A stretch of 44,537 nucleotides of DNA from contig JAFUKH010000078.1 of NCBI GenBank assembly GCA_017467845.1, positions 1 to 44,537 of the forward strand, written 5' to 3'. A program made the position numbers and the translations under genes. Under the pieces are notes generated by a model. It saw nothing but the letters and a program-made list of their open reading frames with translations. It did no database searches and was not told the origin of the DNA. Source of the DNA: Lachnospiraceae bacterium. GTDB taxonomy: Bacteria > Bacillota > Clostridia > Lachnospirales > Lachnospiraceae. Shown piece by piece: positions 27,530 through 39,306 of this stretch (positions within the stretch are counted from its first letter, which is position 1; each line of letters begins with the position of its first letter).

Positions 27530-27591
27530 AGGTTGAAAGAACCTTTCAACCTACGTATTAGTGCAGTATCACAAGTATGCTTGTGATATGC
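27530..27591 (+). promoter_or_regulatory. Tandem leader hairpins upstream of yicC
   Basis: Hairpin 1: AGGTTGAAAG (27530-27539), loop AAC, with 27543-27552. Hairpin 2: TATCACAAG (27567-27575), loop TATG, with 27580-27588, extended by GCA/TGC. The yicC ribosome site AGGAAGAGG starts at 27592, right after hairpin 2. No T run follows either, so they may control stability or translation. Confidence 0.6.
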
Positions 27592-27606
27592 AGGAAGAGG
27601 AAAAAT

Positions 27607-28485
27607 ATGATTAAAAGTATGACTGGCTTCGGTAGATGCGAAATTACCGAAAATAATCGTAAATTTACAGTGGAGATGAAATCTGTTAACCATCGTTATT
27701 TGGATGTAAATATTAAGATGCCGAAGAAGCTGAACTTTTTTGAATCAGCCATTCGTAATGAACTGAAGAACTTCATTTCCCGTGGTAAGGTGGATGTGTT
27801 CATCACTTATGAAGACTTCACTGAGAATAATACCACTATCCGCTACAATAAAGAGGTGGCTGGTGAGTATATGAAGTACTTAAGGCAGATTGCCGAGGAT
27901 TTCCAGTTGGATGATGATATCCGTGTATCGACATTGTCCCGTTATCCTGAGGTTCTCACTATGGAAGAAGTGACGCTGGATGAAGAGGAGCTTTGGAAGG
28001 GACTTCAGAAGGCCATTGTGGGTGCATCTGAGGGCTTTGTACAGACCCGTATTGTGGAAGGTGAGAACTTAAAGGAAGATTTAATCGGTAAGCTTGACCA
28101 TATGCTGGAGCTGGTAGATTTTATTTCAGAGCGTTCTCCGCAGATTATCAAGGAGTATCGTGAGAAACTGGCAGCGAAGGTGCAGGAAATGATTGGTGAT
28201 GTACAGGTGGATGAAGCAAGACTTCTGACAGAGGTTACCATCTTTGCAGACAAGTCCTGTGTGGATGAGGAACTGGTAAGACTTCGCAGCCACATTGAGA
28301 CTACTAAGAAGACTTTGGAGGCAGGCGGAAGTATCGGCAGAAAGTTGGATTTCATAGCTCAGGAGATGAATCGTGAAGCCAATACTACCTTATCTAAGTC
28401 CAATGATTTAGAGATTTCCAATTGTGCCATCGAGCTTAAGACCGAAATCGAAAAGGTGAGAGAACAGATTCAAAACATAGAATAG
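27607..28485 (+). CDS. yicC: YicC-family endoribonuclease
   Basis: 292 aa from ATG 27607; the in-frame 27577 start lies inside leader hairpin 2 and gives an untypical N-terminus. MIKSMTGFGRCEI is the classic YicC start, and VEMKSVNHRYLDVNIKMP and the C-terminal IGRKLDFIAQEMNREANTTLSKS block are family hallmarks. YicC-type proteins are endoribonucleases acting on some small RNAs and mRNAs. It heads an operon with gmk and rpoZ, the usual order, but is separated from gmk by an inserted structured repeat. Confidence 0.94.
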   Translation: MIKSMTGFGRCEITENNRKFTVEMKSVNHRYLDVNIKMPKKLNFFESAIRNELKNFISRGKVDVFITYEDFTENNTTIRYNKEVAGEYMKYLRQIAEDFQLDDDIRVSTLSRYPEVLTMEEVTLDEEELWKGLQKAIVGASEGFVQTRIVEGENLKEDLIGKLDHMLELVDFISERSPQIIKEYREKLAAKVQEMIGDVQVDEARLLTEVTIFADKSCVDEELVRLRSHIETTKKTLEAGGSIGRKLDFIAQEMNREANTTLSKSNDLEISNCAIELKTEIEKVREQIQNIE

Positions 28486-28493
28486 GAGTGTAA

Positions 28494-28635
28494 ATTCAGA
28501 GCAATGCAGATTTGAGAAAGCACAACGTGCAAGCTCGCTTGCTAAGGTGGGCTTTTACAAATCTATATGGCGAGCAGCCATATCTGAGCAAAAGGAAAGG
28601 CTCGTTAGAGCCGATTTTGCGAAGGTGCTCTGAAT
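28494..28635 (+). repeat. Structured intergenic repeat, copy 1 (forward)
   Basis: 142 bp with perfect 9-bp terminal inverted repeats (ATTCAGAGC 28494-28502, GCTCTGAAT 28627-28635). Inside lie a stem AGATTTG/CAAATCT (28508-28514, 28558-28564) holding GCAAG-CTCG-CTTGC, a hairpin ATATGGC/GCCATAT (28565-28583), and a stem GCAAAA/TTTTGC enclosing GGCTC-GTTA-GAGCC (28588-28620). It fills almost the whole yicC-gmk gap and abuts the gmk ribosome site. A diverged inverted copy is at 39162-39306. Confidence 0.85.
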
Positions 28636-28645
28636 AAAGGGATAC

Positions 28646-29281
28646 ATGAACAATAAAGGAATATTAACAGTCGTTTCAGGCTTTTCCGGTGCGGGAAAAG
28701 GTACTGTGATGAAGAAGTTGATGGAGAATTACGATAATTATGCATTATCCATCTCCATGACTACCAGAGCTCCCAGAACGGGGGAAACTCATGGGAAAGA
28801 ATATTTTTTCTCTACAAGGGAAGAGTTTGAGCAGAAAATTGAAGCAGGACAGCTTTTAGAGTATGCCTGCTACTGTGACAATTATTACGGAACTCCCAGA
28901 GAGTACGTGGAGGAGCAGCTTGCAGCAGGTAAGGATGTTATTTTAGAGATTGAGATTCAGGGTGCACTTAAGATTAAGCAGCAGTGTCCGGATTGTCTGC
29001 TTCTCTTTGTCACTCCGCCAAGTGCGAAGGAGCTGGAGAAGAGACTGGTTGGACGCGGTACAGAGACCATGGAGGTTATAAGTAAGCGTCTGTCCAGAGC
29101 AACAGAGGAATCAGAAGGCATTGAAGCCTATGATTATATAGTAATTAATGATGATTTAGAGGCTTGCGTGAAGGAGCTTCACAGCATAGTTCAGAATGCG
29201 CACAATACTGTAGAGCGCAGGGCAGAATTTATTAAAGAAATCAGAGAAGAACTGAAGCAGTTCTCGAAAGGAGCAAAATAA
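28646..29281 (+). CDS. gmk: Guanylate kinase
   Basis: 211 aa. It converts GMP to GDP with ATP. The P-loop is VSGFSGAGKGTVMKKL (about 9-24). The GMP-binding block SISMTTRAPRTGETHGKEYFFSTREEF and YGTPREYVEEQL are normal. The length is typical. The weak ribosome site AAAGGG begins one base after the right end of the structured repeat. The stop overlaps the rpoZ start (TAATG). Confidence 0.98.
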   Translation: MNNKGILTVVSGFSGAGKGTVMKKLMENYDNYALSISMTTRAPRTGETHGKEYFFSTREEFEQKIEAGQLLEYACYCDNYYGTPREYVEEQLAAGKDVILEIEIQGALKIKQQCPDCLLLFVTPPSAKELEKRLVGRGTETMEVISKRLSRATEESEGIEAYDYIVINDDLEACVKELHSIVQNAHNTVERRAEFIKEIREELKQFSKGAK

Positions 29282-39155: not shown

Positions 39156-39161
39156 ATAACC

Positions 39162-39306
39162 CTTCAGAGCCCCCTATTCGCAAAATCGTGGCGTCGCCAC
39201 TTCCCTTTTGCTCACAAGTGCTTACGTGCTATATGAATTTATGAACACAGCCCTCTACAAGCGAGCTTGCTCAGTCTGTGTTTCATAAATTCGCATGGCT
39301 CTGAAT
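39162..39306 (-). repeat. Structured intergenic repeat, copy 2 (inverted)
   Basis: 145 bp. Read on the minus strand it aligns end to end with the copy at 28494-28635. Shared parts are ATTCAGAGC/GCTCTGAA(G) ends, CAAGCTCGCTTG, GAGCAAAAGG-AAG and CGATTTTGCGAA. Helices keep pairing with different bases: GAATTTATGA/TCATAAATTC (39235-39244 with 39283-39292), ACACAG/CTGTGT (39245-39250 with 39276-39281), GTGGC-GTC-GCCAC (39188-39200, + strand). It fills the gap between convergent xerD and the DAHP synthase gene. Confidence 0.85.

Follow-up and report, generated by a model that had tools for sequence, protein, structure and literature searches.

Two related blocks of DNA occur in the window, by which we mean the whole 44,537-nucleotide stretch of Lachnospiraceae DNA analyzed here, and one of them lies in the gap between yicC and gmk. 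The initial annotation proposed that they are copies of a structured repeat rather than a decaying insertion. What kind of element is this, is its structure maintained as RNA or as DNA, and why does a copy sit between two genes? Both blocks are present, they can be aligned over their whole length in a pairwise alignment, and the motifs quoted for them are there. The two helix swaps that had been described (GGCTC-GTTA-GAGCC versus GTGGC..GCCAC, and AGATTTG/CAAATCT versus a 10-bp pair) are correct. R1, a covariance model built from 20 copies (alignment A2), was used to place the repeats relative to the neighboring genes.

27577..28485, + strand: yicC-like endoribonuclease gene (PF03755/PF08340), upstream of copy 1
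28494..28636, + strand: repeat copy 1, in the yicC-gmk gap and co-directional with both genes (R1, 141.2 bits)
28646..29281, + strand: gmk, guanylate kinase gene (PF00625), downstream of copy 1
39161..39306, - strand: repeat copy 2 (R1, 123.3 bits)

The bounds given earlier (28494-28635 and 39162-39306) held except at one end of each copy, where the model adds a base. Copy 2 starts 8 nt past the stop codon of a DAHP synthase gene, with which it is co-directional, and occupies the convergent gap between that gene and one for a XerD-like recombinase. The outer ends of copy 1 are eroded, the GTAACT hexamer being absent. As the initial annotation proposed, this copy may influence the expression of gmk. 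Inspection of the flanks revealed no target duplication at either copy in the window. A promoter scan at copy 1 gave one site against 0.9 expected, which is not above chance, and its antisense strand carries one terminator-like site (0.2 expected). In most of 30 relatives' loci a further gene, which we take from its sequence to be remA-like (DUF370), sits between yicC and gmk. It is absent there in the window (28486-28645), and a short motif search of the rest of the window found no RemA.

The repeat belongs to a large family. The 3.0-Mb assembly from which the window comes (G000) gave 42 blastn matches at E ≤ 10 and 72 R1 matches at E ≤ 0.1. Of the latter, 59 score at least 40 bits; among the weaker ones, some are antisense echoes of copies already counted. 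Nineteen of 31 genomes sampled from the genus have matches, with numbers ranging from 0 to about 60 each (61 in G000, 54 in a relative, G006). A broader model, R2, found matches in 106 of 250 sampled Lachnospiraceae genomes, representing 105 of 249 genera, and in 13 of 291 genomes of a class-wide sample (8 from the same family and 5 outside it); about 11 to 12 candidates were scored per genome in these two scans, so the count for any one genome is an "at least" value. The covariance-model search suggested with the initial annotation has thus recovered many copies, both in the source genome and in relatives. A pattern scan of named genomes yielded at least 98 stretches. Among the 80 matches listed, nearly all are from Lachnospiraceae by title or genus (the titles include Roseburia, Pseudobutyrivibrio, Kineothrix and other genera that we presume to belong to this family), and two are titled only "bacterium". 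One strong match (L421, G407:C33:1412-1553, 145.8 bits) is in a genome of another family and reflects either transfer or contamination. The only phage match was partial, with 42 query bases at 88%, and lay in a record of 4 kb. A plasmid search found no match to the repeat, and the viral contigs scanned had none to the arm-3 pattern.

The predicted fold of the roughly 143-base element has an outer stem that encloses three arms. In copy 1 its parts are as follows.

28494..28503, + strand: 5' strand of the outer stem, ATTCAGAGCA; predicted partner 28626-28635; corresponds to the terminal inverted repeat
28508..28564, + strand: arm 1, a long stem with internal loops and a CAAGCTCGCTTG tip; 20 of 25 significant pairs
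28565..28583, + strand: arm 2, a short hairpin, ATATGGCGAGCAGCCATAT; no significant pair
28584..28624, + strand: arm 3, CTGAGCAAAAGGAAAG-hairpin-CGATTTTGCGAA; 5 of 25 significant pairs

Both copies fold far better than shuffled sequences (z = -6.2 for copy 1 and -6.9 for copy 2), and none of 200 shuffles was as good. Both strands fold, the + strand more stably than the - strand. The outer stem is formed by the pair TTCAGAGC/GCTCTGAA, and arm 1 ends in the tip CAAGCT.GCTTG. Arm 3 is framed by TGAGCAAAAGG...CGATTTTGCGAA; its lower stem is near-invariant and its tip covaries. By inspection, this arm contains a tandem G-A opposition, which is replaced by T-A/C-G in copies with TTCGC. Six copies (L195, L198, L205, L318, L319 and L322) have an extra hairpin in or before arm 3, for example AACAACAAGT..ACTTGTTGTT.

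Covariation was assessed in two ways. In the 20 aligned copies, 92.6% of cells are paired versus 84.7% after column shuffling, and double changes occur in 30 of 53 pairs versus 14.1; none of 500 column shuffles reached either observed value. When the structure was slid by 1–3 columns, only 9–12 pairs retained double changes. The second test, which resembles R-scape, re-sets the substitutions of an inferred tree on random columns. It was applied to 77 of 85 rows, with copies from two genomes, as were the G-U comparisons described below. Against this tree-aware null, 25 of 53 pairs are significant at E < 0.05, 20 of them being in arm 1 and the other 5 in arm 3. No significant pair was found among the 77 rows in arm 2 or in the outer stem, where pairing is retained without significant covariation. 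When all columns at least 4 apart were compared, 18 pairs were significant and all 18 fall within the fold. The paired fraction is 91.5% over all 77 rows versus 48.0% in the null, and 91.8% in the 51 end-eroded copies versus 42.5% in the null on the same tree; these contrasts are flattered by a null that does not preserve the rate of each column and so pairs poorly. For this reason we place more weight on the pair tests and the 20-copy shuffles. The shape of the RNA is kept by selection even where the letters differ, and the claim that structure is under selection has survived the enlargement of the alignment, in which covariation stays significant. The many copies and covarying stems by which a structured mobile repeat was to be recognized were both found.

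G-U and A-C oppositions were used to ask which strand is selected. Over all rows there are 144 G-U and 68 A-C, a ratio of 2.12 (null 1.27, maximum 1.90); with arm 2 excluded, the raw counts are 132 and 35. The ratio rises to 2.60 in eroded copies (null 1.07, maximum 1.92), and is 1.61 in the 26 intact-ended rows, a value that the null also covers (maximum 1.72). No such strand bias is expected of a hairpin under selection as DNA, and the fold is therefore likely selected as RNA of the + strand.

Many copies reach out beyond the fold to GTAACTATTCAGAGCC...GGCTCTGAATAGTTAC ends. Ends and flanks were viewed for 50 of the 72 matches in G000; the G006 sets used for ends, neighbors and orientation comprise 39 of 54 repeat matches and 39 of 62 matches to the Rfam family RF01699, namely those listed. 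(One further repeat locus set holds 50 G000 and 32 G006 loci.) Both outer hexamers, GTAACT and AGTTAC, are present at 5 or more of 6 positions in 30 of 89 copies, the two in the window not being among them. In these 30, the flanks agree at length 8 with a score of 0.571 versus 0.381 when shuffled (0 of 2000 shuffles as high); the 8-bp duplication is perfect in 6 and matches at 7 or more of 8 positions in 11. No duplication was detected in the same copies at other lengths from 4 to 12, and length 3 showed a small excess that 11 of 2000 shuffles reached. The 59 copies without intact ends have, as a group, no duplication. The earlier remark that no clear target duplication is seen thus stands for the two copies in the window but fails for the family. 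IS200/IS605-type elements insert without target duplication, and the 8-bp duplication in the family does not fit a hairpin element of that type. REP sequences are short palindromes tied to RAYT transposases; the size and ends of the repeat point instead to IS66.

The pattern formed by the ends has 17 occurrences in G000 and 68 in G006, versus 1 and 0 for the reversed pattern. G006 contains two 1,817-bp elements that have GTAACTATTCAG at their ends and are flanked by perfect 8-bp duplications. Each encodes a 485-residue IS66-family transposase (PF03050, E = 1.2e-42), and the two proteins are 100% identical. Homologues are present in 5 of 31 genomes of the genus (G006, 100%; G003, 63%; G024, 41%; G017 and G026, 27%), and the G003 element has similar ends. 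Neither a PF03050 match nor a homologue of the transposase was found in G000, which is 86% complete, and the IS was therefore taken from a relative. The initial statement that there is no transposase consequently holds for the window's own assembly and not for its relatives, where an IS66 element shares the ends of the repeat. The repeat resembles MITEs of the single-ORF IS66 subgroup (which we take to be the one named ISBst12) in that its GTAA ends and 8-bp duplication also occur in the IS66 element. It differs from that element in carrying the covarying three-arm RNA; neither 1,817-bp copy matches the repeat model at E ≤ 1. Judged by its GTAACTATTCAG ends and 8-bp duplications, the repeat would be a MITE of IS66 type built around an RNA core. 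The common ends and duplication length suggest that the IS66 transposase moves it. Several short elements (L274–L279, 41–113 bp) also have GTAACTATTCAG ends, with no clear duplication by eye; L274 and L275 retain portions of the RNA core, and the rest consist of hardly anything but the ends. A copy from another genus (L406) has a longer and different palindromic end (CAATTTTAGTGTCAATTAAGAGCC and its inverse), perhaps a third kind.

The interior of the repeat resembles a known Rfam family. Clostridiales-1 RNA (RF01699) appears among the orphan RNA motifs in the relevant passages of Weinberg et al. (2010; PMC2864571). Rfam types this RNA of unknown function as "Gene; sRNA", and its gathering cut-off is 48 bits. 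Copy 1 scores 23.1 bits, below the cut-off, and copy 2 (L028) gave no match at E ≤ 1. Eleven of 20 repeat loci from the source genome match over the full model at 23–37 bits, none of the 20 reaching the cut-off; 2 of 15 further loci from other genomes pass it (L409, 53.7 bits; L064, 49.1 bits). Clostridiales-1 copies proper coexist with the repeat, with four over the cut-off in G000 and 62 matches in G006. In the reverse direction, R2 run over 42 Clostridiales-1 loci gave 23 weak matches at E ≤ 1. At known Clostridiales-1 places these do not exceed about 39 bits and fall mostly on copies with variable stems (see below); two are at other positions in the loci, the best of all the matches (48 bits) among them, and most TGATGCC copies were missed. 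The two RNAs have in common an outer stem with arms, the GCTTGC tip of arm 1 and an arm with an internal loop, and differ in their ends, in arm 2 and in duplication length (8 bp for the repeat, 5 bp for Clostridiales-1). On inspection, arms 2 and 3 of the two look shifted against each other in the Rfam alignment. From these matches, the RNA core of the repeat is probably a diverged relative of Clostridiales-1. The original account is to this extent amended: the element is not only a selected RNA but also derives from a DNA transposon, and its likeness is to a family already in Rfam. The literature searched, partly in the form of passages, contained nothing linking Clostridiales-1 to mobility.

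The 39 Clostridiales-1 copies examined in G006 fall into two classes, 20 with TGATGCC-like ends and 19 with variable outer stems. The former have a 5-bp duplication (0.764 versus 0.550, 0 of 2000 shuffles), as judged from the 11 of 20 copies with a recognizable right end. The variable outer stems share only 39% identity, but 6.2 of their 7 positions are paired, versus 3.5 in the null (0 of 5000 as high). In this class (loci L332–L370), 12 of 14 copies begin between -9 and +2 nt from a co-directional upstream stop codon, which lies in or beside the outer stem; 6 of 8 TGATGCC-type copies lie within -3 to +6 of one. The first bases of Clostridiales-1 elements contain stop triplets, so the element may partly supply the stop itself. 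Co-directional and opposite copies number 12 and 1 for the variable-stem class, versus 6 and 9 for the TGATGCC type. Because of the RF01699 matches, the end classes in G006 and the variable stems, this looks like one RNA plan that occurs both with transposon ends, of two kinds, and in a form lacking them. At one locus (L351, G006:C1:1879004-1879472), three Clostridiales-1 matches are arranged head-to-tail (starting at 1879004, 1879162 and 1879317).

Orientation was also counted within the repeat family, among copies between two same-strand genes (21 of the 30 with intact ends and 34 of the 59 with eroded ends). Intact-ended copies divide evenly (11 co-directional, 10 opposite), whereas eroded copies are mostly co-directional (27 versus 7, binomial p = 0.0008). 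The comparison of the two groups is suggestive only within the family (Fisher p = 0.07) and gives p = 0.0008 when pooled with the Clostridiales-1 classes. In all these counts genes were called simply as longest ORFs, and eroded ends are no more than a proxy for age. The pattern suggests that sense copies are kept as parts of mRNAs. There is weak support for retention in place, with yicC as the exception: an R2 match lies just past the yicC stop codon in 5 of 30 genus loci, the window's own included, in diverged forms. That survey covered 30 of 58 loci and gave a clear reading at all but a few (G007, G002, G048 and G056); its automatic gap lengths include remA. G000 and G006 copies have one gene gap in common, which is about chance by a rough estimate, and orthologous gaps were dropped as evidence of retention. 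In one gene gap (G000:C9:39930, G006:C1:3578268), one genome has the repeat and the other a Clostridiales-1 copy.

We consider it probable that the repeat is a non-autonomous MITE with IS66-type ends and a three-arm RNA interior, itself probably related to Clostridiales-1, that is moved in trans and whose sense copies are kept in mRNA. The IS66 transposase would act on the ends and insertion would go in either orientation. Sense copies between or behind genes would then be kept preferentially, the folded RNA being useful in the mRNA or at least harmless. Copy 1 would be an old copy of this sort, eroded at the ends but with an intact RNA. By analogy with the bcr repeats of Bacillus cereus, our best guess is that the RNA acts after transcription, as a spacer or as a protector of 3' ends, and would buffer upstream from downstream cistrons. 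The passages available from PMC3446304 describe bcr1–bcr3 and bcr10/bcr18 as intergenic repeats, the first three MITE-like, that often lie in UTRs or between cistrons, with 40–51% of copies in mRNA; they report a correlation of bcr3 with mRNA half-life and a conserved RNA structure for bcr10/bcr18. The bcr repeats are from another host group; the repeat described here joins MITE ends to tree-tested covariation in a single element.

The rival most in need of weighing also accepts an RNA. The fold could be selected solely to make a transcribed copy harmless, by masking stray start, decay or termination signals, with no benefit to the host, and antisense copies in operons would be lost through harm to expression. 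This is a serious rival with a substantial, if minority, claim: the orientation bias is confined to eroded copies, copy numbers are patchy between genomes, and the antisense strand of copy 1 carries the terminator-like site noted above. An architecture apparently common to two element classes whose ends differ, and variable-stem Clostridiales-1 copies that begin at stop codons, suggest more than harmlessness. The Rfam typing of Clostridiales-1 and the near-invariant lower stem of arm 3 would suit a dispersed family of trans-acting small RNA genes, each copy encoding one and mobility being accidental; we regard this as unlikely, in that the promoter scan at copy 1 did not rise above chance and eroded copies in operon gaps follow the orientation of the genes.

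Stems that serve DNA, as a hairpin or cruciform for transposition or replication, would make compensatory change a matter of palindrome maintenance. A mobile element with inverted-repeat ends that folds on both strands fits this, as does the lack of a clear G-U excess in intact-ended copies taken alone. We nevertheless disfavor the DNA-hairpin reading, and think it quite improbable, given the overall excess of G-U over A-C and a fold that survives erosion of the ends, where the G-U bias is strongest. The greater stability of the + strand fold and the IS copies that give no match to the repeat model also stand against it. An ordinary decaying MITE that folds by chance would have the common ends and duplications typical of MITEs, but covariation and paired fraction exceed their nulls by so much that we give this almost no credence.

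A wider form of the favored mRNA reading is possible, and we advance it tentatively. One RNA module may have acquired at least two unrelated transposon ends (IS66, 8-bp duplication; TGATGCC...CATCA, 5-bp duplication) and may seed Lachnospiraceae genomes with a ready-made mRNA element. Sense copies at gene ends would persist, shed their transposon ends and turn into fixed parts of operons, the outer stem being remade to include the upstream stop codon. Tying likely kin of Clostridiales-1 to transposon ends, a candidate transposase and sense orientation at gene ends gives a testable account of how this RNA is dispersed and of its sites of action. Confirmation would mean that a transposon distributes a functional RNA part and so alters operons throughout one of the major families of gut bacteria. 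At one locus (L424, 1378-1767), a T-box leader match below threshold (77.8 bits against a cut-off of 93) extends across the site of a repeat copy, as though the leader contained the repeat.
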